Shown in pieces: positions 4,074 to 63,449 of a stretch of 64,000 nucleotides of DNA (position 1 is the first letter of the stretch; every line of letters starts with the position of its first letter). The notes beneath the pieces are model-generated. The model was given only the letters and a program-made list of their open reading frames with translations, ran no database searches and was not told where the DNA came from. A program made the position numbers and the translations under genes. Origin of the DNA: Flavobacterium tagetis (GTDB taxonomy: Bacteria; Bacteroidota; Bacteroidia; Flavobacteriales; Flavobacteriaceae); contig NZ_JAERSF010000003.1 of the NCBI RefSeq assembly GCF_016735615.1, positions 744,001 to 808,000 on the forward strand, read 5' to 3'.

Positions 4074-7524
<3,451 letters not shown>

Positions 7525-11110: not shown

Positions 11111-11170
11111 AACTAAAACTAATAATCCTTTTTAATTCTCTAATCTGTGGCAATAAAAAATAAATATAAA

Positions 11171-17735: not shown

Positions 17736-17750
17736 AAAAAATATTCAAAA

Positions 17751-19961: not shown

Positions 19962-19987
19962 CAAAATGAATAAGTAAATTGAAAAAC

Positions 19988-24989: not shown

Positions 24990-25009
24990 TATTTAATTAA
25001 AAAACAATT

Positions 25010-39520: not shown

Positions 39521-39535
39521 CAAAAAAATAATAAA

Positions 39536-41409: not shown

Positions 41410-41567
41410 ACCATTAAGAGATTAAGAAAATTAAGCAGGATGTTTAATTAGACTTATCTTGAGAGCATAAAGTTTTGAGAACGAAAAATGAACGTAACTG
41501 AATGCTTAATGAACTTAAGACAAAGGTTCCATCTAGTGAGCTTAATTGACTTAATATCTTAATGGTT
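41410..41567. repeat. palindrome family E (ACCATTAAGAGATTAAG)
   Basis: ACCATTAAGAGATTAAG at 41410 and CTTAATATCTTAATGGT ending near 41567; same family as 55796-55931. The ATG assigned to the next gene lies in the right arm (CTTAATGGTTC). Confidence 0.85.
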
Positions 41568-46086: not shown

Positions 46087-46218
46087 CCACGAATTCACGA
46101 ATTATTTTTTATAAACGATACGTATTTTTTGTGTCAAATTGCTCGAATTAAGATTTTCGGTAAAAATTAGAGAAATAAAGCGCAAAGAACAATTAAGGAA
46201 AATTCGTGAATTCGTGGC
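46086..46218. repeat. palindrome family C, perfect 18-bp arms (GCCACGAATTCACGAATT)
   Basis: Arms 46086-46103 and 46201-46218, identical in sequence to those at 34887 and 35068. The left arm begins with the G of the preceding stop codon. An in-frame ATG at 46139 inside the element would add 32 codons to the next gene and was rejected. Confidence 0.95.
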
Positions 46219-46234
46219 GAAAAAAAAATATACT

Positions 46235-48685
46235 ATGAAGTTAAAAATTAAAATAACGGCAATCTGTTTTGGAATTTTTTCCTTGATTGCAAAAGCACAA
46301 AGTGACCTAAAACTTTGGTACGATAAACCCGCATCCATCTGGAACGAAGCTCTGCCTTTAGGCAACGGACGTTTGGGTGCAATGGTTTTTGGAGATCCGG
46401 CTGTAGAACGCTTACAATTGAACGAAGAAACGATTTGGGCAGGTTCTCCAAACAGCAATGCACATAATAAATCTATTAAAGCACTTCCAATTGTTCGTCA
46501 GTTAATTTTTGACGGAAAATTTGATGAAGCGCAGGATTTGGCAACGCAGGATATTATGTCGCAAACCAATGACGGTATGCCGTATCAGACTTTTGGAAGC
46601 GTTTATATTTCATTCAACGGACATCAAAAATATACCGATTATTACAGAGATTTAGACATTAGCAACGCTACAGCGAAAGTAAAATACAAAGTAAATGGTG
46701 TTGAATTTACAAGAGAGATTTTAACCGCGTTTTCAGATCAGGTAATTGTGGTGAAACTTAGTGCTAGTCAGCCGGGACAGATTACCTGTAATGTTTTCAT
46801 GAACAGTCCGATTGATAAAACGGTTGCTTCGACAGAAGGAAACCAGATTATCCTTTCGGGAGTTGGAACTAACTTTGAAGGTGTAAAAGGAAAAGTAAAG
46901 TTTCAAGGCCGATTAACCGCTAAAAACAAAGGTGGCGAAATCGATGCCAGCAACGGCGTTTTAAGTATCAACAAAGCCGATGAAGTGACTTTATACATTT
47001 CGATTGCAACGAATTTCAAAAACTATCAGGATATTTCGGGAGATGAAATTGGGAAAAGCAAAGACTATTTAGCGAAAGCGGAAACAAAAGATTTTGAAAC
47101 AATTAAGAAAGCCCACGTTGATTATTATCAAAAATTTTTCAACAGAGTTGCTTTAGATTTAGGTTCGAATGATTTGGTGAAGAAACCCACAAACGAAAGA
47201 ATTAGAGATTTTTCAAAACAATTCGATCCACAATTGGCTTCGTTGTATTTCCAATTCGGAAGATATCTTTTAATTTCAAGTTCACAGCCAGGCGGACAGC
47301 CAGCAAATCTGCAAGGAATTTGGAACGATATGGTTACTCCGCCTTGGGACAGTAAATACACCACAAACATCAATGCCGAAATGAATTACTGGCCGGCACA
47401 AGTAACCAATTTGCAGGAAATGCACGAACCTTTTGTACAAATGGCAAAAGAATTAAGCGTTACTGGAGCAGAAACGGCTAAAACGATGTACAATGCCAGC
47501 GGATGGGTTTTACATCACAACACTGATATCTGGCGCGTAACCGCTCCGGTAGATGCAGCAGCTTCGGGAATGTGGCCGACTGGCGGTGCATGGGTTTGTC
47601 AGGATTTATGGGAAAGATATTTATATACCGGCGATAAAAAGTATTTAGCAGAAATTTATCCAATTATGAAAGGCGCAGCCGATTTCTTTTTAGATTTTAT
47701 GGTTATAGATCCAAACACAAAATATTTAGTGGTTGTGCCGTCAAGTTCACCTGAAAATACACATGCAGGCGGAACTGGAAAAGCTACAATTGCATCGGGA
47801 ACAACAATGGATAATCAGTTGGTTTTTGATTTGTTTAGGCATGTTATCGAAGCTTCGGCATTGGTTTCTCCAGATGCATCTTATGTAAAAAAAGTAAGTG
47901 ATGCTTTGGCAAAAATGCCACCAATGAAAATTGGAAAACACAATCAGTTGCAGGAATGGCAGGACGATTGGGATAACCCAAAGGACAATCACAGACACGT
48001 TTCGCATTTGTACGGATTGTATCCGAGTAATCAGATTTCGGCAATTAAAACACCTGAATTATTTGAAGCGGCTAAACAATCTTTAATTTACAGAACAGAC
48101 GAATCTACTGGTTGGTCAATGGGTTGGAAAGTAAATTTATGGGCGAGATTATTAGACGGAAATCATGCTTATAAATTGATTCAGGATCAATTGCATTTGG
48201 TAACAGCGGATCAAAGAAAAGGAGGAGGAACGTACCCAAATATGTTAGATGCGCATCAGCCGTTTCAAATTGATGGAAATTTTGGATGCACAGCCGGTTT
48301 TGCCGAAATGCTGATGCAAAGTCAGGAAGATGCGATTCAGTTATTGCCTGCTTTACCAGCTGTCTGGAAAGACGGAAGCATAAAAGGTTTAGTGGCAAGA
48401 GGCGGTTTTGTAATCGATATGACTTGGAAAAACAATAAAGTTTCGACTTTAAAAATCTATTCGAAAATTGGTGGAAACTGTCGCTTAAAAGTTGAAAATA
48501 GTTTGAGTGGTTCTTCAATCAAAAAAGCAAAAGGGAAAAATACAAATCCTCTGTTTTATGATGTAGAAGTGAAGAAACCTATTATTTCTAAAGAAGCAAA
48601 ATTGCCTAAAGTACAATTGCCAAATTACAATATTTACGATGTGAATATGAAAGCGGGGCAGACTTATACTTTTACTGGGAATTAA
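46235..48685 (+). CDS. GH95 exo-alpha-L-fucosidase/L-galactosidase
   Basis: An 816-residue secreted protein; signal peptide MKLKIKITAICFGIFSLIAKAQ. The N-terminal beta-sandwich has the GH95 hallmark LGNGRLGAMVFG followed by LNEETIWAGSP; the barrel has Asn378 and Asn380 in TTNINAEMNYWP (counterparts of the Asn pair that activates water in BbAfcA), Glu507 in SSPENTHAG as probable acid, and Asp680 in FQIDGNFG. It hydrolyses terminal alpha-L-fucose or, as for BT1010 in RG-II chain A, alpha-L-galactose. Since the locus carries other RG-II family enzymes, L-galactose is a real option. The family call is firm; the sugar is not. Confidence 0.93.
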   Translation: MKLKIKITAICFGIFSLIAKAQSDLKLWYDKPASIWNEALPLGNGRLGAMVFGDPAVERLQLNEETIWAGSPNSNAHNKSIKALPIVRQLIFDGKFDEAQDLATQDIMSQTNDGMPYQTFGSVYISFNGHQKYTDYYRDLDISNATAKVKYKVNGVEFTREILTAFSDQVIVVKLSASQPGQITCNVFMNSPIDKTVASTEGNQIILSGVGTNFEGVKGKVKFQGRLTAKNKGGEIDASNGVLSINKADEVTLYISIATNFKNYQDISGDEIGKSKDYLAKAETKDFETIKKAHVDYYQKFFNRVALDLGSNDLVKKPTNERIRDFSKQFDPQLASLYFQFGRYLLISSSQPGGQPANLQGIWNDMVTPPWDSKYTTNINAEMNYWPAQVTNLQEMHEPFVQMAKELSVTGAETAKTMYNASGWVLHHNTDIWRVTAPVDAAASGMWPTGGAWVCQDLWERYLYTGDKKYLAEIYPIMKGAADFFLDFMVIDPNTKYLVVVPSSSPENTHAGGTGKATIASGTTMDNQLVFDLFRHVIEASALVSPDASYVKKVSDALAKMPPMKIGKHNQLQEWQDDWDNPKDNHRHVSHLYGLYPSNQISAIKTPELFEAAKQSLIYRTDESTGWSMGWKVNLWARLLDGNHAYKLIQDQLHLVTADQRKGGGTYPNMLDAHQPFQIDGNFGCTAGFAEMLMQSQEDAIQLLPALPAVWKDGSIKGLVARGGFVIDMTWKNNKVSTLKIYSKIGGNCRLKVENSLSGSSIKKAKGKNTNPLFYDVEVKKPIISKEAKLPKVQLPNYNIYDVNMKAGQTYTFTGN

Positions 48686-48833: not shown

Positions 48834-50402
48834 ATGTTGACAAATTTCAAACATAAAATAATAACACTTTCAATTGTAATCGCTTGTATAAACAGCGGTT
48901 GTAAATCTGGTGCAGTAGAATCCCAAAAAGGAAAATCGGTTATTTTAAAAGAAAAAAACTTCAAACATTATGTTGATTATTTCAATACAATGGAAGATGA
49001 AAATTTAAAATTCGCGATTCCGAATGACAGCGCGTGGGCCTGGATGGAAAAGAATATTCCGTTGTTTGAATGTCCACAGCAGAATTTTGAGGAAATCTAT
49101 TATTTCCGTTGGTGGAGCGTTCGCAAACATATTAAGAATACACCACAAGGGTTTGCGATTACAGAGTTTTTAGTTGATCGTTCGTATGCCGATAAATACA
49201 ATATGATCAGTTGTGCTTTGGGACATCATATCAACGAATTCAGATGGGTTCATGATCCGAAATACATTGAACAGGATGTCAAACTTTGGTATAGAGGAAA
49301 TGATGGAAAACCAATGAACAAATTATATAAATTCAGCAGTTGGACAGCCGATGCTTTATATAATCGTTATTTGGTGAATAAAGATGAAAAATTCTTATTG
49401 GATTTGTATCCAGACATGGTTACAGATTATGCCGTTTGGGAAAAAGATCGTCAGAGAAAAGATGGTTTGTTTTGGCAGCATGATGTAAAAGACGGAATGG
49501 AAGAATCCTTAAGTGGCGGGCGTAAAGTACAAAATGCTAGGCCAACGATAAACAGTTATATGTATGGAAATGCTGTAGCAATTTCTAAAATGGCTGCAAT
49601 GAAAGGCGATAAAGAAGCGGAAACAAAATTTAAAGCTAAAGCTGACATTTTACAACAATTAGTCGAAACCAAATTATGGAATTCTAAAAGTGAGTTCTTT
49701 GAAACTTTAACTCAAAAAGATACTCTGGCGCAGGTTCGCGAGGCGATCGGATTTATTCCGTGGTATTTTAATCTTCCTGAAAAAGGAAAAGGATTTGAAA
49801 AAGCTTGGGAACAAGTGAAAGATGAAAAAGGATTTTCGGCTCCGTTTGGTTTGACAACAGCAGAAAGAAGAAGTCCACGTTTTAGAACTCATGGAACAGG
49901 AACTTGTGAGTGGGACGGCGCGATTTGGCCTTTTGCAAGTTCTCAGACTTTGACTGCTATGGCGAATGTCCTAAATGATTACAATCAGAATTTTGTTGGA
50001 AAACCAGATTATTTCAAACAAATGGAATTGTATGTTCAATCACAATATTATAGAGGAAAACCTTATCTTGGCGAGTATTTGGACGAAACAACAGGCTATT
50101 GGTTAATGGGAGACAGGGAAAGAAGCCGTTATTACAATCATTCGACTTTCAATGATTTAGTGATTACTGGTTTGGTTGGTTTACGCCCGAGAGCTGATGA
50201 AAAGATTGAAGTGAATCCGTTGATTCCGCAAGAAAAATGGGATTGGTTTTGTTTGGATAATGTTCTATATCATGGCAATATTATTACCATTCTTTGGGAC
50301 AAAACAGGAGAAAAATATAATAAAGGAAAAGGTTTTAGAATCTTTAAAAACGGAAAGGAAATTGCGGTTTCTGATAAATTAGAGAAGTTAGTTTCTGAAT
50401 AA
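48834..50402 (+). CDS. MGH1-like (alpha/alpha)6 glycosidase, probable lipoprotein
   Basis: A 522-residue protein with a short hydrophobic leader and two candidate lipobox cysteines, Cys18 (VIAC) and Cys23 (NSGC). The mature part is an (alpha/alpha)6 toroid of the MGH1/GH63-like type: FSSWTADALYNRYLVN, ARPTINSYMYGNAVAI, REAIGFIPWYFNLP and GTCEWDGAIWPFASSQT, in which Glu359 and Asp361 are plausible catalytic acids by analogy with GH63/GH37 (WDGxIWP-type loops). A small C-terminal beta tail (about 455-520) completes the fold. GH142, known from RG-II breakdown, has a comparable fold and is one possibility; I cannot confirm it. It lies between GH95 and a non-CAZyme membrane protein. Confidence 0.65.
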   Translation: MLTNFKHKIITLSIVIACINSGCKSGAVESQKGKSVILKEKNFKHYVDYFNTMEDENLKFAIPNDSAWAWMEKNIPLFECPQQNFEEIYYFRWWSVRKHIKNTPQGFAITEFLVDRSYADKYNMISCALGHHINEFRWVHDPKYIEQDVKLWYRGNDGKPMNKLYKFSSWTADALYNRYLVNKDEKFLLDLYPDMVTDYAVWEKDRQRKDGLFWQHDVKDGMEESLSGGRKVQNARPTINSYMYGNAVAISKMAAMKGDKEAETKFKAKADILQQLVETKLWNSKSEFFETLTQKDTLAQVREAIGFIPWYFNLPEKGKGFEKAWEQVKDEKGFSAPFGLTTAERRSPRFRTHGTGTCEWDGAIWPFASSQTLTAMANVLNDYNQNFVGKPDYFKQMELYVQSQYYRGKPYLGEYLDETTGYWLMGDRERSRYYNHSTFNDLVITGLVGLRPRADEKIEVNPLIPQEKWDWFCLDNVLYHGNIITILWDKTGEKYNKGKGFRIFKNGKEIAVSDKLEKLVSE

Positions 50403-50470: not shown

Positions 50471-51559
50471 TTGGAGAAAACAGTATTAAATTATTCAATC
50501 AAAGATGGTGTATTTCATATTATATGGAATATGGTATTTGTGGTTTTAGGCATTTACTTTTTATCACTTATAAATGTTGAAAAATTTACATTTAAATTTA
50601 GCAATTTAGTATTACCAATTGTTGCTGTTTTGTTTATCGTCGTTTATGGGAAAAAAGCAGTGATGACTCTTTTTAATTTTCATAAAAAAATAATATTCTC
50701 ACAAGAAGGATTAGAACTTAATGAGATTTTTTATGAATGGAAAGATATTGTATTTCCAAGAGTTATCGTCAAAACAGAACACACGGCAAAATACAATTTG
50801 TCATATAAGGAGTTTTACCTCACTTTTGTTTATAAGCAGAAAACGATCGAAATAAAAATAGATGATTACGATGTATCTGAAAATGAAATTAAGGAACTTC
50901 TAAAAAAATATACTCCAAAGTTTACACCAAACACTATGAGCGAAAATAAAACAGTTTACCAACCTATACATGATTTTGACCAGATCATCACTTTAGAGCA
51001 ATATTATGATCTTGAATATGAGGATTCAGAAGAAGCGATTAAAGACATTCAGAAATTAGCGGTAAAAGATCTAGAGTCAGTAAAGCGTTTTTGTGAAAAC
51101 AATCTTTATACACAACCTGATAAAGTTAGGTTTGTCTATTATGCATTGAGTGAGGATGAAGATCTTGATAAATGGGCAGATTTTCTTTCAGATGAATTCA
51201 GAAGGGTGTATCAAATAGGATTAGATCAAAATAATGTTAAAGAACTTTCTTCTGTTATTAATGAGATTATAGTCGAGACAATAGATTCCTATCGTGCAGA
51301 AGGGGTTAGAGAGGTATTATTAAAAGCTTTGGATCATAAGAATTTTGAAATTCGTTTAAACGCTTTGGAATTTCTTCCAGATTGGATTGATGAACAGGTT
51401 TTGAAGAGTAATTCAGCAATAGTATCCAAGCTGAGACAAAAGCTGAAAGATCCAGAGTGGAAAATACGCTGGGAAACAAGTAAGTTATTAGAACGAAATA
51501 AAATTGCTTTTGAGAGTTTAAGCACATTGGACAAATTAAGACGATTTATAAATCCTTAA
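50471..51559 (+). CDS. membrane protein with cytosolic PH-like and HEAT-like region, TTG start, unknown function
   Basis: A 362-residue protein with no signal peptide or CAZyme motif, unlike every neighbour. Two transmembrane segments (about 14-33 and 44-60) are followed by a small beta-rich domain with a PH-like look (about 70-140, FSQEGLELNEIFYEWKDIVFP), an acidic region, and a helical C-terminal part (about 160-350) whose repeats such as ALDHKNFEIRLNALEFLPDW and KLKDPEWKIRWETSKLLE resemble HEAT repeats. The start is TTG at 50471 because it gives a complete first helix; no upstream in-frame ATG exists nearby. No function is recognised. It might be a passenger gene or part of an unrelated cargo; co-direction and a 68-base gap allow co-transcription. 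Confidence 0.65.
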   Translation: MEKTVLNYSIKDGVFHIIWNMVFVVLGIYFLSLINVEKFTFKFSNLVLPIVAVLFIVVYGKKAVMTLFNFHKKIIFSQEGLELNEIFYEWKDIVFPRVIVKTEHTAKYNLSYKEFYLTFVYKQKTIEIKIDDYDVSENEIKELLKKYTPKFTPNTMSENKTVYQPIHDFDQIITLEQYYDLEYEDSEEAIKDIQKLAVKDLESVKRFCENNLYTQPDKVRFVYYALSEDEDLDKWADFLSDEFRRVYQIGLDQNNVKELSSVINEIIVETIDSYRAEGVREVLLKALDHKNFEIRLNALEFLPDWIDEQVLKSNSAIVSKLRQKLKDPEWKIRWETSKLLERNKIAFESLSTLDKLRRFINP

Positions 51560-51745: not shown

Positions 51746-54496
51746 ATGAAAAAGTTTTTTTTACATCTTATCTTAATCATTTCACTTTTCACAATTTCGG
51801 CGAAAGCCCAAACCAAAATAATTGTGAGTGATTTAAAATGCGAAATGTTAACGAATCCAGAAGGGATTGATGTTTTACAGCCAAGATTGAGCTGGAAAAT
51901 TAAAGCAGAGATAAACGATGTAAAACAAACTCATTATCAAATTTTAGCTTCTTCATCTTTAGAAAAACTAAATGCGGGAAACGGAGATTTATGGGATAGC
52001 GGAAAAGTACAAAGCGACGAATCTGTAAATGTAATTTATACTGGAAAAAAGCTAATAGACAGACAAGAAGTTTATTGGAAAGTAACGGTTTTTACCAATA
52101 AAGGAGAAATTCAATCAAAAGAAACGGCACATTTCAGTATCGGAATTTTAACTTATGCTGATTGGAAATCAACACGATGGATTGGTTATGAAAAAACTTC
52201 TCAAGGAGATAGTATTTCGCAGTATTCTCGATTATCAGCCAGATATTTAAGAAAAGAAATTGACTTGAAAAAGAAAGTCAAAAGTGCCAAAGTTTATATC
52301 ATGGGAATGGGCTTGTACGAGCTATACATTAACGGAAATAAAATTGGAGATCAGGTTTTAGCGCCCGTTCCTACAGATTATACGAAGAATGTAAAATACA
52401 ATGTCTTTGATGTGACTTCACAATTACAGGAAGGTAAAAATGCATTAGGAACGATTTTAGGGAACGGACGTTTTTTTACGATGCGTCAAGATTATAAACC
52501 TTATAAAATCAAAACTTTTGGTTATCCGAAAATGGCTTTGCAGTTGTTTGTAGAATATACAGATGGAAGTAAAGATGTGATTAGAACCGATGATACTTGG
52601 AAAATTACAACCGATGGACCAATCTTATCCAACAACGAATACGACGGCGAAGAATATGATGCCCGTAAAGAAATGAAAGGCTGGAATACCATTAATTTTA
52701 ATGATAAAAAATGGTTTTCGGCAGAATATGTTCAAGAGCCAGGCGGATTCTACGAAGGACAGATGTCGGCGAATATGAAGATAAAACGCGAAGTAAAACC
52801 TATTTCGATCAAACAAACATCAAAAGGAACTTATATCTTAGATATGGGACAAAATATGGTGGGCTGGCTACAATTGAAAGTAAAAGGAAATGCGGGCGAC
52901 AAAATCACAATGAAATTTGCTGAATCTTTACAGCCAGATGGTTCGTTATACGTTGCGAACCTTCGTGATGCGAAAACGACCGATATTTATACGTTAAAAG
53001 GTGAAGGCGAAGAAGTTTGGGAACCGCGTTTTATTTTTCACGGATTTCGATTTGTGGAAATTTCGGGTTTCAAAACCAAACCGACATTAGACAATTTCGT
53101 TGGAAAAGTCGTTTATGATGACATTGCCACAACAGGAACTTTCGATTCTTCAAACCCAATTATGAATCAGATTTTTAAAAATACTTGGTGGGGAATTAGT
53201 GGAAATTATAAAGGAATGCCAATCGATTGTCCGCAGAGAAACGAACGTCAGCCTTGGTTGGGAGACAGAACAACGGGAGCTTATGGAGAAAGTTTCTTGT
53301 TTGATAATCAAACGTTATACGCAAAATGGTTAGATGATATTAAAAATGCCCAGACTATCGATGGCGGAATTCCAGATGTGGCACCAGCTTTCTGGCGTTA
53401 TTATGGTGATAATGTGACTTGGCCGGGAACTTATATTACAGTTGCCGATATGTTGTATCAGCAGTTTGGAGATAAAAAAGTGGTTGAAAAACAATATCCG
53501 TCTATGAAAAAATGGATGGATTACATGGAAGAAAACTATTTGGTTGATGATATCATGATCAAAGACAAATATGGCGATTGGTGCGTTCCACCAGAATCGC
53601 TGGAATTAATTCGTTCCAAAGATCCTTCTCGTTTAACCGATGGTGAATTGATTTCGAGCGCGTTTTATTATCAGCTTCTAAATATCATGAAAAAGTTTGC
53701 TGTGATTGCCAATTCGCAAAATGATATTAAACATTATGATGAATTAGCTTCAAGAATAAAAAAAGCATTCAACGCTAAATATTTTAATGCATCCAAAAAC
53801 AATTACGCCAATAATACCGTAACTGCCAATTTACTGCCTTTGACTTTCGGAATGGTTCCAGAAGAATTACAGCAAAAAGTTTTCGAAAATCTAGTGCATG
53901 AAGTTGAAGTGACAAAAAACGGTCATGTAAGTACGGGCGTTATTGGAACTCAGTTTTTGATGCGAACGTTAACCAATTTTGGTCGTGGCGATTTGGCTTT
54001 CAAATTGGCCTCAAACAAAACCTATCCAAGCTGGGGTTATATGGTCGAAAATGGCGCAACAACCATTTGGGAACTTTGGAATGGAAATACTGCCGATCCA
54101 GCAATGAATTCGCAAAATCACGTCATGCTTTTAGGCGATTTATTGATTTGGTATTACGAAAATATGGCGGGAATCAAAAGCAATCCTGAAACTCCAGGTT
54201 TCAAACAAATTATTATGAAACCAGATTTTAATGCTGGATTGACTTATGTAAATGCCTCATACGAATCGATTTACGGGACAATAAAAAGCAACTGGAAAAA
54301 AGATAAAAAAGGTTTGGTTTGGAATATTACCGTTCCCGCAAATGCATCTGCGGTAGTTTATCTTCCAACAAACAATATTGAAGCTATTTCAATTAATAAA
54401 CAGAAGCTGGATAAGACTTCTTATACTTATTCGGTAGAAAAAAATCAAATAATTGTCACTCTTTCGTCAGGAAATTTTGCTATTAGCGTTAAATAA
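51746..54496 (+). CDS. GH78 alpha-L-rhamnosidase
   Basis: A 916-residue secreted protein; signal peptide ends at SAKAQ (residue 22). Domains as in the family: fibronectin-like N-terminal domain (NPEGIDVLQPRLSWKI), galactose-binding-like domain (GMGLYELYINGNKIGDQVLAP), second beta domain, (alpha/alpha)6 barrel and C-terminal sandwich. Asp494 to Glu500 lie in IDCPQRNERQPW and Glu776 in TTIWELWNG, the usual acid and base positions. It differs from the GH78 at 41562 in both motifs (RNERQPW against REKLGW; IWELWNG against TEQWDP), so they belong to separate subgroups and probably cut different rhamnosyl links. Confidence 0.95.
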   Translation: MKKFFLHLILIISLFTISAKAQTKIIVSDLKCEMLTNPEGIDVLQPRLSWKIKAEINDVKQTHYQILASSSLEKLNAGNGDLWDSGKVQSDESVNVIYTGKKLIDRQEVYWKVTVFTNKGEIQSKETAHFSIGILTYADWKSTRWIGYEKTSQGDSISQYSRLSARYLRKEIDLKKKVKSAKVYIMGMGLYELYINGNKIGDQVLAPVPTDYTKNVKYNVFDVTSQLQEGKNALGTILGNGRFFTMRQDYKPYKIKTFGYPKMALQLFVEYTDGSKDVIRTDDTWKITTDGPILSNNEYDGEEYDARKEMKGWNTINFNDKKWFSAEYVQEPGGFYEGQMSANMKIKREVKPISIKQTSKGTYILDMGQNMVGWLQLKVKGNAGDKITMKFAESLQPDGSLYVANLRDAKTTDIYTLKGEGEEVWEPRFIFHGFRFVEISGFKTKPTLDNFVGKVVYDDIATTGTFDSSNPIMNQIFKNTWWGISGNYKGMPIDCPQRNERQPWLGDRTTGAYGESFLFDNQTLYAKWLDDIKNAQTIDGGIPDVAPAFWRYYGDNVTWPGTYITVADMLYQQFGDKKVVEKQYPSMKKWMDYMEENYLVDDIMIKDKYGDWCVPPESLELIRSKDPSRLTDGELISSAFYYQLLNIMKKFAVIANSQNDIKHYDELASRIKKAFNAKYFNASKNNYANNTVTANLLPLTFGMVPEELQQKVFENLVHEVEVTKNGHVSTGVIGTQFLMRTLTNFGRGDLAFKLASNKTYPSWGYMVENGATTIWELWNGNTADPAMNSQNHVMLLGDLLIWYYENMAGIKSNPETPGFKQIIMKPDFNAGLTYVNASYESIYGTIKSNWKKDKKGLVWNITVPANASAVVYLPTNNIEAISINKQKLDKTSYTYSVEKNQIIVTLSSGNFAISVK

Positions 54497-54639: not shown

Positions 54640-55785
54640 ATGAAGTTAGCAAAATTAGCATTTGTCTTGTTTGGACTTTTCCTTTTAGGAAGCTGTAAAT
54701 CGGCTTTGGAGAAAAAGACTTGGAAAGAAGGAATTTTAGTAGATGAATTTATTTATGATAAAGCACCTTATCCGTCTTGCCATGCCGTTACAATTGTCGA
54801 AGCTACAAATGGTGATTTAGTTGCCTCATGGTTTGGTGGAACTCACGAAAGACACCCAGATGTTTGCATATATGTAGCTATCAAACCAAAAGGAAGTGAT
54901 AAATGGGGAGAAGGTGTAAAAGTTGCCGATGGTGTGATGAAAGAAGGGCCAAGATTACCAACTTGGAATCCGGTTTTATATCAAATTCCAAGAGGCGATT
55001 TAATGTTATTCTACAAAATAGGACCAAAACCATCAGAATGGTGGGGCGTAATCAGAACTTCATCTGATGGCGGAAAAACTTGGTCTGAAGCACAAAAAAT
55101 GCCAGATGGTTTTTTAGGGCCAATCAAAAACAAACCTGTTTTATTAAGCAATGGAACTTTATTATGTCCGTCAAGTATTGAAGGCGACGGCTGGAGACTT
55201 CGTATGGAATCTACTCCAGATTTCGGGAAAACTTGGGTAATGGGAGATACACTTCCAAGAGGAAAACAAAAAATAAATGCCATTCAGCCAAGTATTTTAT
55301 TTCATAAAGACGGAAGTATTCAAGCGATCGGAAGAACTCGAAATAGAGCAATTTTTAGCACATTCTCAAAAGATAACGGAAAAACTTGGTCGGATGTAGA
55401 ATTAATCGGACTTCCAAATAACAACTCAGGAACTGATGCGGTTACACTTAAAGACGGCAGACATTTATTAGTTTATAATCATGTTTTGCCTCCTGGAAAA
55501 GAAGCAAAAGGGCCAAGAACGCCTTTGAATGTTTCGGTTTCTAAAGACGGAATTCATTGGAACGCTGCTTTAGTTTTAGAAGATTCAAAAATCAGTCAAT
55601 ATTCTTATCCTTCAATTATTCAAAGTTCAGACGGAATGGTGCATATCGTGTACACTTGGAGAAGGGAAAAACTGAAATATGTAAAAGTAGATCCAAGTAA
55701 ATTAGTGGCGCTTCCAATTAAAAACGGAATTTGGCCAGGCGACGAAGGAAAAGTAGTTACAGCAGTAAAAGCCGAAGAAGAGTAA
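54640..55785 (+). CDS. sialidase-like (BNR) lipoprotein
   Basis: A 381-residue lipoprotein (LGSC lipobox, Cys19). Three Asp-box type turns are visible: SSDGGKTW (141-148), TPDFGKTW (about 195-202) and SKDNGKTW (243-250), plus SKDGIHW, giving a six-bladed sialidase propeller. The conserved CHAVTIVEATNGDLVASWFGGTHER start and GPRLPTWNP block are shared by a plant-polysaccharide-linked group labelled exo-alpha-sialidase. Sialic acid is absent from plant cell walls, so a related acidic ketosugar of RG-II (Kdo or Dha) or another pectic sugar is a more sensible target; this is inference. It follows a 143-base gap without any of the palindromic repeats. Confidence 0.7.
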   Translation: MKLAKLAFVLFGLFLLGSCKSALEKKTWKEGILVDEFIYDKAPYPSCHAVTIVEATNGDLVASWFGGTHERHPDVCIYVAIKPKGSDKWGEGVKVADGVMKEGPRLPTWNPVLYQIPRGDLMLFYKIGPKPSEWWGVIRTSSDGGKTWSEAQKMPDGFLGPIKNKPVLLSNGTLLCPSSIEGDGWRLRMESTPDFGKTWVMGDTLPRGKQKINAIQPSILFHKDGSIQAIGRTRNRAIFSTFSKDNGKTWSDVELIGLPNNNSGTDAVTLKDGRHLLVYNHVLPPGKEAKGPRTPLNVSVSKDGIHWNAALVLEDSKISQYSYPSIIQSSDGMVHIVYTWRREKLKYVKVDPSKLVALPIKNGIWPGDEGKVVTAVKAEEE

Positions 55786-55795
55786 AATAAATTGA

Positions 55796-55931
55796 ACCAT
55801 TAAGAGATTAAGAAAGTTAAGTTGTTGTATCTATTTATTCTTTTAAAAAGAACATTAAGCTTAATTTTCTTCATCTTCTAATGATAATAATAAAAAGTAT
55901 TGAAGCTTAATTTCCTTAATGCCTTAATGGT
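55796..55931. repeat. palindrome family E (ACCATTAAGAGATTAAG)
   Basis: ACCATTAAGAGATTAAGAAA at 55796 and CTTAATTTCCTTAATGCCTTAATGGT ending 55931. Same family as 41410-41567. The ATG at 55900, inside the repeat, was rejected as start of the next gene. Confidence 0.85.
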
Positions 55932-55944
55932 AAAACCAATTAAC

Positions 55945-56829
55945 ATGAAGCTAAATAAAAATTTAATTGTTGTATTGTTTGTTGCTTTATCAACGACATT
56001 TAATAGCTGTGCAACGGCTCAGTCTTCTAATAAAAAGCAAAAATATAAGGTTGCAGTTTGTGACTGGATGATTTTAAAAAGACAAAAACTAGGTGCTTTT
56101 GGTTTGGCCGCTGAAATAAAAGCAGACGGAATCGAACTCGATATGGGAGGTTTAGGAAACAGACCAACATTTGACAGTAAATTAGGCGATCCAGTTGAAA
56201 GACAAAAGTTTTTAGATAAATCGAAAGAAACTGGAGTTGGAATCAGCTCAATTGCCATGTCTGGATTTTATGCGCAGTCTTTCGCGACAAGAGAAATCAC
56301 ACCAATGATTGCCGATTGTATTCAGGCTATGAAAAACATGAAAGTAAAAGTGGCCTATCTTCCGTTAGGAACACAAACCGATTTGGTTAAGAATCCTGAA
56401 TTACGTCCAGAAGTGATCAAAAGACTGCAATGGGCAGGAAAAGAAGTAGGGAAAATAGGCGGTGTAATTGCGATTGAAACCTCTTTAGACGCGACAGAGG
56501 AGAAAAAACTTTTAGACGAAGTCGGTTCAAAATATATTAAAAGCTCTTTCAATTTTGCGAATGCTTTAGATAATAAAAGAGATATTTCATCAGAATTGAA
56601 AATCTTAGGAAAGAAATATGTATCTCAAATTCACGCTTCAAACACCGATCATTTTTGGTTAGAAAATGACAAAGCGATCGACATGCCAAAAATCAAAGAA
56701 ACTTTGGATGAAATGAAATGGCGCGGATGGCTAATAGTAGAGCGTTCTCGTGACGTAACGCAAGTACATAATGTTAAAGCCAATTACGGAGCAAACGTAG
56801 CTTATTTGAAGAAGATTTTTCAGAATTAA
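55945..56829 (+). CDS. sugar isomerase/epimerase-like TIM-barrel lipoprotein
   Basis: A 294-residue protein with a lipoprotein leader (TFNSC, Cys22), so it is exported, which is unusual for an isomerase. The xylose-isomerase-like fold shows the four metal-ligand positions: Glu178 in AIETS, Asn203 in SFNFAN, His230 in IHASN and Glu266 in IVERS. Most relatives have Asp at the second position; the Asn here would weaken or alter the metal site. Catalysis on an oligosaccharide or a released rare pectic sugar in the periplasm is possible, as is a non-catalytic binding role. The start at 55945 avoids the repeat and gives the lipoprotein leader. Confidence 0.75.
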   Translation: MKLNKNLIVVLFVALSTTFNSCATAQSSNKKQKYKVAVCDWMILKRQKLGAFGLAAEIKADGIELDMGGLGNRPTFDSKLGDPVERQKFLDKSKETGVGISSIAMSGFYAQSFATREITPMIADCIQAMKNMKVKVAYLPLGTQTDLVKNPELRPEVIKRLQWAGKEVGKIGGVIAIETSLDATEEKKLLDEVGSKYIKSSFNFANALDNKRDISSELKILGKKYVSQIHASNTDHFWLENDKAIDMPKIKETLDEMKWRGWLIVERSRDVTQVHNVKANYGANVAYLKKIFQN

Positions 56830-57090: not shown

Positions 57091-59820
57091 ATGAAATATT
57101 TACAATTACTTTTTTTATGTCTTTACGTCTCTTTCGCGACAGCGCAGAACATCACAGTAGTTAGTGATCCGAGTTCGCCGAGAGCAAAATTTGGAGCAGA
57201 GAAATTATCTGAAACACTTTCAGCAAAAGGGTTCAGTGTAACTTCTTCTGATAAATTCAAAAAATCAAAAGATAAAATAATTGTAATTGGAGAAAAAGGA
57301 ACCGATTTTTGGAAGAAAAACGCGAAAAGCGCTAAAATCGATGATAGCAAATTAACCAAGAAAGAAGGTTTCCAGATTCGCACACAAAATAATGTAATTT
57401 ATGTTGAAGGAACAGATGCTTCAGGAGCTTTGTATGGAGCTTTAGAATTAACAGATAAAATTAAAGCTTCAGGAAAACTTCCTTCAGAAATTAATATCGA
57501 AGACAGTCCAGAAATGGTTTTGCGTGGAGCCTGCATCGGAATGCAAAAACCAGTTTATCTTCCAGGACGTGATGTTTACGAATATCCATATACACCAGAA
57601 ACTTTTCCGTGGTTTTATGATAAAGCTTTATGGATAAAATACTTGGATATGCTGGTAGAAAACCGCATGAATTCTTTGTATTTATGGAACGGACATCCGT
57701 TTGCTTCTTTAGTGAAACTAAAAGAATATCCATTTGCAGTTGAAGTCAGCGACGAAGATTTCAAAAAGAATGAAGAAATCTATAAATTTCTGACTGTTGA
57801 AGCTAACAAAAGAGGAATCTGGGTAATTCAGATGTTCTACAATATTATTGTTTCTAAGCCTTTTGCAGAGCATTATAATATTAAAACGCAAGATCGTTCA
57901 AGACCTATTACGCCTTTATTGTCAGATTACACGAGAAAATCTATTGCTGCTTTCATCGAAAAATATCCAAACGTTGGATTGATGGTTTGTTTGGGAGAAG
58001 CCATCAATACCGTTGATGATGATGTAGAATGGTTTACCAAAACTATTATTCCGGGTGTTCGTGACGGTTTACAAGCATTAGGAAAAACAGAAGAACCGCC
58101 AATTATCCTTCGTTCTCACGATACAGACGGACCTTTGGTAATGGAAAAATCACTTCCGTTATACAAAAACCTTTACACAGAAAGTAAATATACAGGAGAA
58201 TCTTTAACGACTTATACGCCGGGCGGACCTTGGGGAGAAACGCACAAACAGTTGAGTTCTCTTAAATCAATTCATATCGAAAATGTTCATATTCTGGCAA
58301 ATCTAGAACCTTTTAGATACGGTTCGCCAGATTTTATCCAAAAAACAGTAAAAGCGATGCACAGCATTCACGGAGCAAATGCGCTACATTTATATCCGCA
58401 AGCGTCGTATTGGGATTGGCCGTATTCGGCAGATAAAACGAAATCAGGAGAGCGTTTATTAGAAATGGATCGCGATTGGATTTGGTACAAAGCTTGGGCA
58501 AGATATGCTTGGGACAGCAAAAGAGATCGTAACGAAGAAGTTAAATTTTGGGATAATGATTTAGCAGCGAAATTCGGAACGACTCAAGAAGCAGCAAATA
58601 ATATTTTAAAAGCTTACGAAGAAACAGGAGAAATCGCTCCAAAGACCTTAAGACGTTTCGGAATCACAGAAGGAAACCGTCAAACCTTATTGTTAGGAAT
58701 GTTCGAAAGTCAGTTGGTAAATCCTTCAAAATGGAGAGTTTATCCGGGATTCCATGAATCTTGCGGACCAGCAGGAGAATTGCTTTTAGAATATGCTAAA
58801 AAAGAATGGAATAAAGAACCGCATTCGGGCGAATTGCCAACGCAAATTATTGCTGAAATTACAGAACACGGAAGATTGGCCGTTGAAGCAATAGATAAAG
58901 CAGAAGCCAGCGTAACCAAAGACAAAGAAGAATTTGCACGTCTTAAAAATGATATGCATGCGTATAAGGCTTTTGCCGATTTCTTCTCAGAAAAAGTAAA
59001 AGCAGCTTTATTGGTTTTAAGATACAGTTATTCAAATGATATTACAGATTTAGACAAAGCTTTGCCTCATTTAGAAAAAAGTATCGAGTACTATGAGTTA
59101 TTGGTAAAACTAACAAAAGATACGTACTATTATGCCAACAGTATGCAGACTGCTCAACGCCGAATCCCGATTGGAGGAGACGACGGGAACAACAAAACAT
59201 GGGCAGAATTATTGCCTCATTATGAGCGTGAATTGGCTAATTTTAAAAGAAATCTAGAGAAGCTAAAATCTTCTAAAGATGGTAAAATCGAAACCAAAGA
59301 AGGTAAACCTTGGAAAACAGCCGAAGTAACTTTTATCGACGAAAAACCAGGAACGTATTTAGTAAAACCAGGAACAAAAGTCTATGGAACAGATATTTCT
59401 GAGTTAACTAAAATTGCTCCTGAACTTCAAAACCTTAAAGGATTTTCATTCGTAGAAAACGATCAAAACGAAAAAGGAACACATTTGAAGTTTAGAAATA
59501 CAAAAGCGGTTAAATTAGTTGTCGGGTATTTCAATTCAGATCAGAAGAGATTCTTATTGCCACCAAGTTTAGAAACTGACGCCGCAGGAAATGCGCACGG
59601 TCAAGCCGAAGTGATTCTGGCAAGTGCAATGAATTTAAAAGAGTTACCACGTGTAAACATTCACACCTATACTTTCCAGCCGGGCGAGAATAAATTAGAT
59701 TTAGGAAAAGGAAAAGTATTGATTTTAGGTTTTATCGATGCAGATCAAACCATATCACCACGCGATGTTGGATATATCGATGCAGGAGAAAAAGCAGCTA
59801 TTGACTGGTTGTTTTATTAG
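57091..59820 (+). CDS. GH138 alpha-galacturonidase (RG-II chain A)
   Basis: A 909-residue secreted protein; signal peptide ends at FATAQ (residue 19). Domains: GH20/GH67-like N-terminal alpha/beta domain (20-150, ASGALYGALELTDKI), TIM barrel (about 160-530), helical bundle (about 540-740) and a C-terminal beta-sandwich (about 750-900) shared with the protein at 1089. For the prototype BT0997 I recall acid/base Glu294, nucleophile Glu361 and specificity residues Arg332 and Arg521. Here Glu303 (CLGEAIN), Glu370 (YTGESL), Arg341 (ILRSHD) and Arg530 (EGNRQT) all fit at a constant offset of +9. The enzyme removes D-galacturonate alpha-1,2-linked to L-rhamnose in RG-II chain A. This is the best family marker of the locus. 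Confidence 0.92.
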   Translation: MKYLQLLFLCLYVSFATAQNITVVSDPSSPRAKFGAEKLSETLSAKGFSVTSSDKFKKSKDKIIVIGEKGTDFWKKNAKSAKIDDSKLTKKEGFQIRTQNNVIYVEGTDASGALYGALELTDKIKASGKLPSEINIEDSPEMVLRGACIGMQKPVYLPGRDVYEYPYTPETFPWFYDKALWIKYLDMLVENRMNSLYLWNGHPFASLVKLKEYPFAVEVSDEDFKKNEEIYKFLTVEANKRGIWVIQMFYNIIVSKPFAEHYNIKTQDRSRPITPLLSDYTRKSIAAFIEKYPNVGLMVCLGEAINTVDDDVEWFTKTIIPGVRDGLQALGKTEEPPIILRSHDTDGPLVMEKSLPLYKNLYTESKYTGESLTTYTPGGPWGETHKQLSSLKSIHIENVHILANLEPFRYGSPDFIQKTVKAMHSIHGANALHLYPQASYWDWPYSADKTKSGERLLEMDRDWIWYKAWARYAWDSKRDRNEEVKFWDNDLAAKFGTTQEAANNILKAYEETGEIAPKTLRRFGITEGNRQTLLLGMFESQLVNPSKWRVYPGFHESCGPAGELLLEYAKKEWNKEPHSGELPTQIIAEITEHGRLAVEAIDKAEASVTKDKEEFARLKNDMHAYKAFADFFSEKVKAALLVLRYSYSNDITDLDKALPHLEKSIEYYELLVKLTKDTYYYANSMQTAQRRIPIGGDDGNNKTWAELLPHYERELANFKRNLEKLKSSKDGKIETKEGKPWKTAEVTFIDEKPGTYLVKPGTKVYGTDISELTKIAPELQNLKGFSFVENDQNEKGTHLKFRNTKAVKLVVGYFNSDQKRFLLPPSLETDAAGNAHGQAEVILASAMNLKELPRVNIHTYTFQPGENKLDLGKGKVLILGFIDADQTISPRDVGYIDAGEKAAIDWLFY

Positions 59821-59827: not shown

Positions 59828-59912
59828 TTCCTGCAAGGTTTTCAAAACCTTGTAGGTATTCTAAATGAACGTTAAAAAGTAAACCTACAAGGTTTTGAAA
59901 ACCTTGCAGGAA
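59828..59912. repeat. perfect 30-bp inverted repeat, family B (CCTGCAAGGTTTTCAAAACC)
   Basis: Arms 59828-59857 and 59883-59912 are exact reverse complements with a 25-base spacer; each arm also contains an inner palindrome (AAGGTTTT-C-AAAACCTT). It starts 7 bases behind the GH138 stop and ends 9 bases before the GH2 start. A TTG in its right arm (59895) was rejected as start. Confidence 0.96.
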
Positions 59913-59921
59913 ATAGAAAAT

Positions 59922-62900
59922 ATGAATAGAATAGTTTTTTTTATTTTTTGTTTTTTTTCAAGCCTTTGCTTTGTTTGGAGTCAGAGCAAAGATTCAGGGA
60001 AGTTTCGTAAAGAAATTTCGCTGAATTCGTCTTGGGAAACCGTAATACTGGATAATCTTCCGCTGAAAGAAGAAGATTTTGTAGAAAATCCAAAAACTGA
60101 TTCCAATTGGCAAAAGGTTAGTGTGCCTCACAATTGGGATCAGTATTATGGTTTCAGAAGAACAAAACATGGAAATTTACATGGTACCGCCTGGTACAAA
60201 AAAATACTAAAACTCGATAAGAAAGACAGTTCAAAACAACATTTTCTCTATTTTGAAGGCGTAAGTTCGTATGCAACTGTTTGGGTAAATGGTAAAAAAG
60301 TAGGAGAGCACAAAGGTGGAAGAACTACTTTCACTTTAGATATTTCCAAAGCAGTTTCTTTCGATAAAGAAAATGTTATTTTAGTAAAAGCAGCGCATCC
60401 CTCTTTTATTGCAGATTTACCTTGGGTTTGCGGTGGCTGTTCTGGAGAATGGGGATTTTCAGAAGGTTCTCAGCCAATGGGAATTTTTAGGCCAGTTTCA
60501 TTGGTAATTACAAACGATGTTAGAATTCAGCCTTTTGGTGTTCATATTTGGAATGACAAATCGGTTTCAAAACAAAAAGCGATTCTTCATACTACAACCG
60601 AAATCAAGAATTACAGTACTTTACAGCGAAATTTAACTATCGAAAATATTCTTTTGGATGCTTCGGGAAAGAAAGTTGTTATTACAAAAAGCTACAACAA
60701 AATCAATTCGGGAGAAACAAAAGAAATAGCTCAGACACTTCCTGAGATTCAGAATCCGAAATTATGGTCGCCATCCAATCCGTATTTGTACAAATTGGTG
60801 ACTTCAGTTTACGAAAACGGAAAAGTAATCGATCAGTTAGCAACGCCTTACGGAATTCGGTGGGTGAGCTGGCCGGTAAGTCGTGACGGAAAAGACAATC
60901 GTTTTTTCATTAATGACGAACCTGTTTTTATAAACGGAGTTTGCGAGTACGAACATTTAATTGGAAAAAGCCATTCGTTTTTGGACGAAATGATTCATTC
61001 CAGAATCGAACAGATAAAAGCAGGCGGATTTAACGCTTTTAGAGAAGCGCATCAGCCTCATAATTTATTGTATCAAAAAGAATTAGACGAAAACGGAATC
61101 TTATTTTGGAGTCAGTTTTCAGCACATATTTGGTACGATACGCCTGAATTTAAAGAAAACTTTAAAACCCTTTTGAGAGAATGGATTAAGGAACGCAGAA
61201 ACAGTCCGTCGGTGGTTATGTGGGGATTGCAGAATGAAAGCACGATCCCGAAAGAATTTGCTGAAGAATGCACTCAGATTATTCGAGAAATGGATCCGTT
61301 ATCAGCTTCACAAAGGATTGTAACAACTTGTAATGGTGGAGAAGGAACAGATTGGAATGTTGTTCAAAACTGGTCAGGAACTTATGGCGGAGATCCTTTA
61401 AAATACCATCTAGAAATGACAACTCAGCTTTTAAATGGAGAATATGGCGCTTGGCGTTCAGCCGATTTACATACAGAAGGTGAGTTTGACCAAAAAGGAA
61501 CTTTGAGCGAAAACCGTTTTTCTCAATTAATGGAAATTAAAGTTAGAGAAGCCGAATCGGTAAAAGATAAAATTGCGGGACAATTCAACTGGCTTTTTGC
61601 TTCGCATGAAAATCCGGGACGAGTGCAGAACGGAGAAGGTTTTAGAGACATTGACAAAGTCGGGCCAGTAAATTACAAAGGACTTTTTACGATTTGGGGC
61701 GAACCTCTGGATGCGTTTTATATGTATCGTGCGAATTATGTTTCCAACAAAACCAATCCGATGGTGTATATTGTTTCGCATACTTGGCCAAGCCGTTGGG
61801 AAAAACCGGGAATCAAAAACGGAATCGATATTTATTCGAATTGTGATGAAGCAGAATTGTTTAATGATGTCAATAAAGCTTCACTTGGAAAACTAAAAAA
61901 TCCGGGAATCGGACAGCATTTTCAGTTTAATAATGTCAATATTCAATACAATGTTTTATATGCCGTTGGTTATGTAAATGGGAAAGCGGTTGCTAAAGAT
62001 TATATCGTTTTAAATAATTTTCCAAAAGCACCAAGTTTTGATGCTTTAACCACTAATAAAGCAGATATTACAAAAGCCAAAAGCGGTTATAATTACATTT
62101 ATAGAGTAAATTGTGGTGGTTCTGAATTGACAGATTCTGCTGGAAATACTTGGTTAACGGATACACACAAAAACGGTCAAAATACTTGGGGTTCGTTATC
62201 ATGGACAGATAATTTTGAAAAACTTCCAGACTTTTTTGCCAGTCAAAGAACAACTTTCGATCCAATAAACGGGACAAAAGACCCTGAATTATTTCAAAGT
62301 TTTAGATACGGAGTTGATAAATTGCGCTACGAATTTCCTGCACCAGACGGAGAATATTTGGTTGAATTATATTTTGCGGAACCGTGGTACGGAACAGGTG
62401 GCGGATTGGATTGCAAAGGCTGGCGTTTGTTTGACGTAGCAATTAATGATAATGTTGTTTTAAAAGATTTCGATATTTGGGCAGAAGCTGGACATGATAA
62501 CGCTTTGAAGAAAACATTTAAAGTAAAAAGTACAAACGGAAAAATTGTGATTTCATTTCCAAATGTAAAAGCTTCACAAGCGATTATTTCTGCGATTGCG
62601 ATTGCAACAAAAGATATTCATGCAAGACCAGCAGCCGAATCTTCGAAAAATATTCAGAATTTGGTTTTAGATTCTTATGATAAAACTAACAAAGTAGCTT
62701 CATGGCTGGATATTAATTCAAAACAATATTCAGATTCTGATGTTATTTTTACCGAATTGCCTTCTGAGGTTTTTGGAGCAGATTATTTACAGTTTTCAGT
62801 TAATCCAAAAAACAAAGGATCATTTATAGCTAAAGAAGAATCGACAATTTATGTTTTAGTTGATAGTAAAATCAAAGCGTTAAGCTGGCTTTCAGATTAT

Positions 62901-63449
62901 AAAAAAATAGAAGAAAAAGCGAAAAACAGCAGTGGAATTTTATTTGATGTTTTCACTAAAAAAGTAAAGAAAGGCGAGAAAGTTCTTTTTGATAATTCTG
63001 AAACAATATCTTCGATTGCAGTCGTTCCAACGTACGATATGGGCGAAAAAGACGATTCAAGGCCAGTTGTAGTCATAGAAGCCGAAAAAACAAAAACAAC
63101 AGGAACAGGAATCGAAAAAGGAAATTTCAAAAAAGCCGATTATATTGAGTTCACAAAAAAGACAAACAATAGTATTGAGTTTGAAGTAAAACCAGGAGTT
63201 GCCGGAATTTATTTAATGCGTTTCCGTTTTATGAATAGAAATGAAACGCCATTAAAAGTCAAATTCAAAATGGAAGATGCGTATGGAATTTTAATGCGAA
63301 ACGACACAATTGAGTTTTTCCCTTCGCCAGAAAAATGGAAGATTTTAAACACAACATCAGGTGGTTATATCAATGCAGGGACGTATAAAATTACGTTGGA
63401 AGGTGATGATTTGAAGGGGTTAATGTTGGACAATTTCGAATTTCAGTAA
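59922..63449 (+). CDS. GH2 exo-beta-glycosidase with malectin-like and CBM6/35-like C-terminal modules
   Basis: A 1175-residue secreted protein; signal peptide ends near FVWSQ. GH2 core: jelly roll (VSVPHNWDQYYGF, GTAWYKK), Ig-like domain, TIM barrel with acid/base Glu439 in WGLQNEST and nucleophile Glu507 in NGEYGAW. A malectin-like domain follows (about 722-870, YRVNCGGSELTDSAGNTW) and a C-terminal beta-sandwich of CBM6/35 type (about 1050-1175, VIEAEKTKTTG). LacZ-type super-sandwich is absent, so this is a different GH2 subgroup from the gene at 4195; beta-galactosidase, beta-glucuronidase or arabinopyranosidase activities all occur in the family. RG-II loci of Bacteroides hold several such GH2 enzymes. 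Confidence 0.9.
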   Translation: MNRIVFFIFCFFSSLCFVWSQSKDSGKFRKEISLNSSWETVILDNLPLKEEDFVENPKTDSNWQKVSVPHNWDQYYGFRRTKHGNLHGTAWYKKILKLDKKDSSKQHFLYFEGVSSYATVWVNGKKVGEHKGGRTTFTLDISKAVSFDKENVILVKAAHPSFIADLPWVCGGCSGEWGFSEGSQPMGIFRPVSLVITNDVRIQPFGVHIWNDKSVSKQKAILHTTTEIKNYSTLQRNLTIENILLDASGKKVVITKSYNKINSGETKEIAQTLPEIQNPKLWSPSNPYLYKLVTSVYENGKVIDQLATPYGIRWVSWPVSRDGKDNRFFINDEPVFINGVCEYEHLIGKSHSFLDEMIHSRIEQIKAGGFNAFREAHQPHNLLYQKELDENGILFWSQFSAHIWYDTPEFKENFKTLLREWIKERRNSPSVVMWGLQNESTIPKEFAEECTQIIREMDPLSASQRIVTTCNGGEGTDWNVVQNWSGTYGGDPLKYHLEMTTQLLNGEYGAWRSADLHTEGEFDQKGTLSENRFSQLMEIKVREAESVKDKIAGQFNWLFASHENPGRVQNGEGFRDIDKVGPVNYKGLFTIWGEPLDAFYMYRANYVSNKTNPMVYIVSHTWPSRWEKPGIKNGIDIYSNCDEAELFNDVNKASLGKLKNPGIGQHFQFNNVNIQYNVLYAVGYVNGKAVAKDYIVLNNFPKAPSFDALTTNKADITKAKSGYNYIYRVNCGGSELTDSAGNTWLTDTHKNGQNTWGSLSWTDNFEKLPDFFASQRTTFDPINGTKDPELFQSFRYGVDKLRYEFPAPDGEYLVELYFAEPWYGTGGGLDCKGWRLFDVAINDNVVLKDFDIWAEAGHDNALKKTFKVKSTNGKIVISFPNVKASQAIISAIAIATKDIHARPAAESSKNIQNLVLDSYDKTNKVASWLDINSKQYSDSDVIFTELPSEVFGADYLQFSVNPKNKGSFIAKEESTIYVLVDSKIKALSWLSDYKKIEEKAKNSSGILFDVFTKKVKKGEKVLFDNSETISSIAVVPTYDMGEKDDSRPVVVIEAEKTKTTGTGIEKGNFKKADYIEFTKKTNNSIEFEVKPGVAGIYLMRFRFMNRNETPLKVKFKMEDAYGILMRNDTIEFFPSPEKWKILNTTSGGYINAGTYKITLEGDDLKGLMLDNFEFQ

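Follow-up and report, generated by a model that had tools for sequence, protein, structure and literature searches.

A predicted rhamnogalacturonan II utilisation locus of Flavobacterium tagetis with a GH138 galacturonidase and unfused side-chain enzymes

Rhamnogalacturonan II (RG-II), the most complex plant pectin, is widespread in primary walls, and the enzyme work on its breakdown considered here comes from gut Bacteroides. The RG-II degradome of Bacteroides thetaiotaomicron is spread over three polysaccharide utilisation loci and cleaves every glycosidic linkage of the polymer except one (PMC12282258). 2-O-methyl-xylose-alpha-1,3-fucose accumulates in this bacterium (PMC7939467) and is probably the one linkage that it leaves. 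On side chain A, BT1010 takes the L-galactose first and the GH2 part of BT0996 then takes the glucuronate; this GH2 is joined in one protein to GH137, which takes arabinose off chain B (PMC9843283). The target of BT0997 is the alpha-1,2-linked galacturonate of chain A (PMC7939467). RG-II loci are known from a wider range of environments as well, so that their occurrence outside the gut is already published (PMC12282258). Moreover, GH137, GH138, GH139, GH142 and GH143 co-occur and co-evolve in a group for which Flavobacterium johnsoniae is named (PMC7922503), and the only flavobacteria for which GH78 and GH106 are reported are those of the terrestrial clade (PMC3784431). To find an RG-II locus in a soil Flavobacterium is therefore nothing new in kind. 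Here we analyse a stretch of 64,000 nucleotides from Flavobacterium tagetis (the window: positions 744001-808000 of contig NZ_JAERSF010000003.1 in the 5.1 Mb genome G000), in which an open reading frame (ORF) at 57091-59820 encodes a GH138 protein. Judged by its sequence, this protein belongs to a known family and is unremarkable within it, and its locus is likewise of a known kind; more noteworthy are the unfused architecture of that locus, a companion protein encoded at 1089-2768 and a plasmid copy of most of the gene set.

The GH138 protein and its place in RG-II degradation

The ORF occupies exactly positions 57091-59820 of the forward strand and comprises 909 codons with an ATG start. It passes NF049878, the NCBIfam equivalog model for alpha-D-galacturonidase, with 1541.9 bits (cut-off 1300), and no placement in another family was found. 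In a phmmer search of the PDB, residues 20-909 match BPa0997 (6hzf, 6hze and 6hzg) with 1122.1 bits, an E-value of 0 and 55% identity. The initial annotation, made from the letters alone, had placed Glu303, Glu370, Arg341 and Arg530 nine residues after their counterparts in BT0997. This is borne out by the alignment, which pairs E303, R341, E370 and R530 with E294, R332, E361 and R521 of BPa0997, so that all four fall on active-site positions. The BPa0997 numbering is independently confirmed at one of the four sites, one chain of this PDB set being deposited as an E361S mutant. We take Glu303 to be the nucleophile, Glu370 the acid/base, and R341 and R530 the ligands of the carboxylate.

It had also been argued that four matches at one offset are hard to get by chance. 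The four residues share one block of the alignment without gaps (query ~135-733, chain ~126-724), and the constant offset is therefore one observation; the notion of four independent coincidences is ruled out. The match is nevertheless beyond chance, because of the alignment as a whole and because E, R, E and R are kept at the four sites in 105 of 105 GH138 loci. These loci, mostly from Flavobacterium, consist of the best 80 of 477 relatives (a set from which close copies of the window genome may be missing) and 25 from a search of 46 chosen genomes, with some species possibly in both sets, and so do not count as 105 independent cases; L188-L191, whose GH138 matches are weak or C-terminal only, were left out of the residue count.

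An AlphaFold model of the protein, built from 20 sequences (that of the window and 19 of the 80 loci), reached a predicted template modelling score (pTM) of only 0.43. With this model, Foldseek ranks BP0997 chains first (55% identity for the full-length ones) at a root-mean-square deviation (rmsd) near 20 angstrom, and VIA-align ranks 6hzg first (Z 15.8, rmsd 17.4 angstrom), with GH67 and GH115 alpha-glucuronidases tied; over both comparisons the rmsd of the GH138 chains ranges from 17 to 21 angstrom. Separately, proteins of three Haladaptatus plasmids (NZ_CP119793.1, NZ_CP120471.1 and NZ_CP119784.1) share ~21% identity with residues 11-475 of the GH138 protein.

The GH138 protein would be a secreted or periplasmic exo-alpha-D-galacturonidase that removes alpha-1,2-linked galacturonate from the rhamnose of side chain A. 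Because of the homology of the families and neighbours, this step is predicted to come after a GH95 enzyme, the family to which we assign BT1010, has taken the L-galactose and a GH2 enzyme the glucuronate. The initial annotation had called the locus RG-II-specific, and the gene content supports that interpretation: homologs of GH140 and of the marker set GH137, GH139, GH142, GH143 and aceric acid hydrolase share the window with GH138, and a SusC/SusD pair is present as well. Its further remark, that the bacterium looks environmental rather than gut-derived, agrees with the closest loci among the best 80 of 477 relatives, which are from Flavobacterium and 98% identical at the protein level. Within the genus sample, full-length GH138 is found in all 10 genomes with GH137 and GH143 (the window genome included) and in none of the 14 without them. 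That the protein is a chain A galacturonidase inside a Flavobacterium RG-II utilisation locus is, on homology and context, very probable. This locus, of at least 63 kb, would bring together a SusC/SusD pair, backbone lyases and esterases, and separate side-chain exo-enzymes, and may allow growth on RG-II.

Several results weigh against this assignment. The poor model yielded no usable three-dimensional superposition of the GH138 active site. Moreover, full-length GH138 was not found in G286, G190, G300, G031, G652 and G701, despite their GH137 or GH143, nor, by tblastn, on a Rufibacter plasmid described below, and GH138 is therefore not essential to every such gene set. Alpha-galacturonides from other pectins or from plant glycans might also serve as substrate, instead of or besides RG-II chain A. 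This would be in line with the enzyme work considered here for these families, which is on gut Bacteroides, and with the inactivity on RG-II of a GH139 orthologue from a soil Verrucomicrobium (PMC12282258), so that orthology in a soil organism does not guarantee activity. We regard it as very unlikely, given that the neighbours of GH138 are RG-II signature families and that its four active-site residues do not vary in the 105 loci. Furthermore, the GH139 of the window keeps 12 of the 12 residues named for BT0984 (W162, W403, Q411, N412, E472, W490, E561, N639, E641, W683, D723 and N729; alignment read by hand, chain numbers one below those of the paper), unlike the inactive soil protein, which is without several of them (PMC12282258).

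A further question is whether the locus suffices for complete degradation. It could be a debranching set that is unable to finish RG-II alone and serves to harvest accessible sugars or backbone. Consistent with this, no gene can be confidently assigned to the 2-O-methyl-xylose linkage or to 3-deoxy-D-manno-octulosonic acid (Kdo), and a Pfam scan of the 30 window ORFs revealed no hybrid two-component regulator; outside the window, 1.8 kb upstream, is an AraC-type regulator. But most signature families are there, and the order GH142-GH78-BNR2-AP2-GH138-GH2, kept in 78 of the best 80 loci, speaks against a relic, so that we consider a mere debranching set unlikely. We retain the reading of the locus as an RG-II utilisation system in which GH138 would act on chain A.

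Gene content and separate enzymes

The window holds 30 distinct ORFs of at least 150 amino acids (one more is nested in another of them), all on the forward (+) strand. The PDB names of the matched chains differ; because length, domains and residue numbers fit, we take 5mt2 to be BT0996, 5mqr BT1020, 6goc BT1017 and 9hyq BT0984. The features are as follows.

1..867, +, GH78-type rhamnosidase, 3' part (5' part in the upstream stretch L083)
1089..2768, +, candidate new RG-II enzyme with a GH138 C-terminal domain (NF049878 725-888 on residues 25-181) and a propeller-like half (residues ~190-559, without Pfam family)
2919..4046, +, stand-alone GH137, predicted beta-L-arabinofuranosidase (NF049877 profile 3-366; PDB 5mt2, E 7e-131)
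4120..7524, +, GH2 (LacZ type), possibly a BT0992-like beta-galacturonidase
7614..11009, +, GH106 alpha-L-rhamnosidase
11147..12595, +, SASA carbohydrate esterase
12774..15101, +, GH139 2-O-methyl-L-fucosidase homolog (9hyq, E 8e-284)
15117..17576, +, PelZ-like pectate lyase protein, without Pfam family
17727..19769, +, GH127 aceric acid hydrolase (NF049879, 1121.8 bits, cut-off 950)
19979..20974, +, CE8 pectin methylesterase
21654..27007, +, SusC/SusD pair
27111..28823, +, PelZ-like pectate lyase with MtsD/TSP3-like tail (first of a pair)
29009..29698, +, stand-alone DUF3826 protein (3g6i, E 1e-44; C-terminus of 6goc, E 1e-11)
29754..31460, +, PelZ-like pectate lyase with MtsD/TSP3-like tail (second of the pair)
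31722..34874, +, DUF6298 protein, 1050 amino acids
35125..36531, +, GH140 apiosidase (Pfam Apiosidase, E 1.5e-111)
36751..38319, +, GH28, candidate backbone galacturonidase
38475..39392, +, GH43-like, candidate alpha-L-arabinofuranosidase
39515..41401, +, GH143-type (N-terminal half of 5mqr, chain 24-609)
41562..44366, +, GH78 alpha-L-rhamnosidase
44668..46086, +, BT1017-type pectin methylesterase catalytic module without C-terminal DUF3826 (6goc 22-460, E 8e-124)
46139..48685, +, GH95, candidate for removal of the terminal L-galactose of chain A
48834..50402, +, GH142-type (C-terminal half of 5mqr, chain 615-1104)
50471..51559, HEAT-like protein between GH142 and GH78
51746..54496, +, GH78 alpha-L-rhamnosidase
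54640..55785, +, BNR_2 sialidase-like, possibly a Kdo-releasing enzyme
55900..56829, +, xylose-isomerase-like TIM barrel, possibly a sugar epimerase
57091..59820, +, GH138 alpha-D-galacturonidase, 909 amino acids (NF049878; BPa0997 alignment)
59895..63449, +, GH2 with malectin, predicted RG-II chain A beta-D-glucuronidase, without GH137 domain (NF049877 profile 361-1400)

BPa0997, which is of the BT0997 type, resembles the GH138 of the window in the aligned residues 20-909, in the four active-site residues and in adjoining a BT0996-type GH2. With the degradome of B. thetaiotaomicron the window has in common GH137, GH138, GH139, GH140, GH142, GH143, aceric acid hydrolase, GH95, GH106, GH78, GH28, GH43 and the BT1017-type esterase. 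It differs, however, in being a single one-strand run of genes, in that both bifunctional enzymes are split and in that the esterase is without DUF3826. Moreover, the propeller-like half of ORF 1089-2768, DUF6298 and CE8 were not found in the examined 100 kb of genome G238, which we take to be B. thetaiotaomicron-like; DUF6298 homologs were detected on the Rufibacter plasmid, in G286 and in G166. GH78 and GH106 as well as GH137, GH138, GH139, GH142 and GH143 are shared with the pectin genes of terrestrial Flavobacterium, whereas the split architecture and the propeller-like protein are not described in the relevant passages of those papers (PMC3784431, PMC7922503).

The separation of the enzymes is evident from the ORFs themselves. 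The GH137 and GH2 genes lie ~56 kb apart, and against the fused GH137-GH2 model (cut-off 1800) they reach 543 and 1558 bits, respectively, so that neither passes. GH143 and GH142 are likewise separate ORFs, whereas they correspond to the two halves of the single 5mqr chain. Of 395 genomes sampled from the phylum, 19 contain GH137, 17 of them in ORFs of 350-435 amino acids and two (G238 and G394) in long ORFs; GH143 occurs in 21 genomes with 22 matches, and long ORFs are again confined to G238 and G394. In the order of G238, GH137 was found in 17 of 344 genomes, five of which have it in ORFs of more than 1300 amino acids, and GH143 is present in eight of the ten of these 17 genomes that were searched for it, in four of them (G413, G525, G705 and G503) in ORFs of more than 1000 amino acids. 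Overall, a GH2 partner stands in the same ORF at 5 of 34 GH137 loci (a few of which are cut by contig ends) and a GH142 partner at 6 of 31 GH143 loci. In samples of this size, all fusions observed belong to the order of G238. We infer this order to be Bacteroidales because of the control result for the fused model, for which one of 14 control genomes scored above the cut-off and the matching controls include Bacteroides ihuae; the genus sampled with the window is presumably Flavobacterium. The two fusions are not always paired, since G503 has a fused GH143, but a GH137 without GH2.

Phylogenetic trees and gene order were also compared. In the GH143 tree the fused rows fall on one side of a branch (support 92/92; 96% of 200 bootstraps). 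In the GH137 tree, which was built without the two truncated rows L149 and L150, they require two changes (6% of bootstraps need only one) and lie together with three unfused rows in one group with support of 100/100. Both trees are midpoint-rooted without an outgroup and do not themselves fix the direction of change. The GH2 gene is the next detected window homolog after GH138 in 79 of the best 80 loci, and the same succession of GH138 and GH2 is seen in G610, an unfused member of the order of G238. In G413, G525, G394 and G238, GH138 is followed by the GH137-GH2 fusion, whereas in the window it is followed by GH2 alone.

Because of the distribution, the trees and the gene order, the unfused arrangement is probably older than both the GH137-GH2 and the GH143-GH142 fusions. 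The simplest reading is that GH137 was joined, once or twice within the order of G238, to the front of the GH2 gene that adjoins GH138. Some loci do not fit so simple a history: GH142, GH28 and GH95 stand between GH138 and GH2 in G033, G080, G138 and G166; in G269 and G150 GH137 follows farther downstream, and the 20 kb retrieved contain no BT0996-type GH2; in G457, G500, G599 and G503 no BT0996-type GH2 was detected in 20 kb around GH138; and in G705 GH138 lies apart from the fusion. BT1017 might be taken for a third enzyme that is split here, into an esterase and a DUF3826 protein, but this was rejected, the stand-alone DUF3826 protein being nearer to BT1022, the protein in 3g6i (PMC7939467), than to the tail of 6goc. 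A DUF3826 is fused to the esterase in no more than 2 of 30 loci, which suggests that the tail was acquired later.

Some further features concern the neighbourhood. The HEAT-like ORF at 50471-51559 was rejected as a member of the pathway and is regarded as a passenger gene, as it has a homolog in only 13 of the 80 related loci. A GH141-type protein with a C-terminal L-rhamnose mutarotase domain is encoded ~8 kb upstream of the window (L083, 9533-12040). A Flavo-1 RNA (RF01705, 72.8 bits, 38357-38434) is located on the reverse strand in the interval that separates the GH28 gene from the GH43 gene. The full neighbourhood of GH138 is kept in Leeuwenhoekiella (L075) and Neptunitalea (L076) and is not kept in Arenibacter (L080), all three of which we take to be marine genera.

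A propeller-like companion protein

ORF 1089-2768 encodes 559 amino acids, of which residues 25-181 match the C-terminal domain of GH138 (NF049878, E 4.7e-19; BPa0997 713-871, E 5e-7). Its second half has no Pfam match at a lax threshold, except that one of six members gave DUF7261 at an E-value of 0.066. In profile searches of the PDB it matches weakly 9fj8, a beta-1,2-oligomannan phosphorylase (E 0.0064), and 3r4y (E 0.012), followed by two antibody chains (E 0.48 and 0.79). We take 9fj8 and 3r4y to be GH130 and GH117 propellers, and the repeated motifs of the protein, read by eye, are presumably of the kind seen in five-bladed propeller glycosidases (the GH43, GH117, GH130 and GH137 types). 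Comparison of the second half with GH137 by hhalign gave 4% (profiles from 6 of 11 and 10 of 34 sequences, respectively), and a structure model of the whole protein, with a mean predicted local distance difference test score of 40.4, is too poor to name a fold. E228 and E447 are among 25 acidic residues that are invariant in the 11 aligned sequences and the Rufibacter homolog.

The protein has homologs in 11 of the 395 genomes: ten of the same genus that have GH137, GH138 and GH143 (the window genome included), and G286, where GH143 is found. All 10 genomes of the genus with RG-II genes encode the protein and none of the 14 others does (one-sided p 5e-7, a value inflated by shared descent). 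A profile of the second half found matches in 12 of 365 genomes, those in G150 and G333 being weak and partial; it found none in viral contigs and, among 13 genomes of the family of G286, only G286 itself. The second half is 80% identical (300/374) to a protein on the Rufibacter tibetensis plasmid, where the homolog directly adjoins an alpha-L-fucosidase gene, and 63% identical (234/374) to that of G286.

This distribution is consistent with ORF 1089-2768 being, probably, an RG-II enzyme or accessory protein. Its tie to GH138 is not tight, however: G033, G080, G138, G150, G166 and G269 have GH138 without it at an E-value of 1e-15, and G286 has it without GH138. More tentatively, and with somewhat more doubt than belief, the protein may be the founder of an undescribed family of propeller-type glycosidases dedicated to RG-II. 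That it cleaves the linkage left by B. thetaiotaomicron, probably 2-O-methyl-xylose-alpha-1,3-fucose, is a suggestion to which we give little credence.

A plasmid copy and the biology of RG-II use in soil

Most of the gene set recurs on NZ_CP012644.1, a plasmid of 235438 bp from the soil bacterium Rufibacter tibetensis that PLSDB types as mobilizable (MOBB) (loci L243, L244 and L245). For 28 of the 30 window ORFs the plasmid gives a tblastn match at E <= 1e-8, paralogs possibly included, GH138 and ORF 50471-51559 being the two without one. For 23 ORFs the best piece has at least 40% identity over at least 70% of the query. These include GH137, GH139, GH140, GH142, GH143, GH127, the methylesterase module, DUF6298, the paired PelZ-like lyases and the propeller-like protein; SusC, SusD, CE8, the third PelZ-like protein and the LacZ-type GH2 fall outside them. 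The GH141-type protein upstream of the window matches the plasmid through its mutarotase-like tail only. Moreover, the order PelZ, PelZ, DUF6298, GH140, GH43, GH143 is common to the window, the plasmid and G286, with insertions of DUF3826 and GH28 in the window, of SusC/SusD before GH143 on the plasmid, and of DUF3826 and a TIM-barrel gene in G286. Literature searches for the plasmid and for RG-II in Rufibacter showed no report of this gene set. On another plasmid, from a soil Streptomyces (NZ_CP045548.1, 341215-342273), a GH137 homolog (43%) lies under a discoidin-domain protein.

A soil genus in which nearly all the enzymes of the set are encoded by single-function genes would offer a simpler system in which to assign each step of RG-II breakdown, and these genes show that the two-enzyme fusions are dispensable. 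ORF 1089-2768, which was not found in the Bacteroides-like genome, and DUF6298, which was not found in the 100 kb of it examined, are places where an activity for the last uncleaved linkage could be sought. Finally, the presence of most of the set on a plasmid typed as mobilizable suggests that the capacity to use RG-II can move between soil bacteria.

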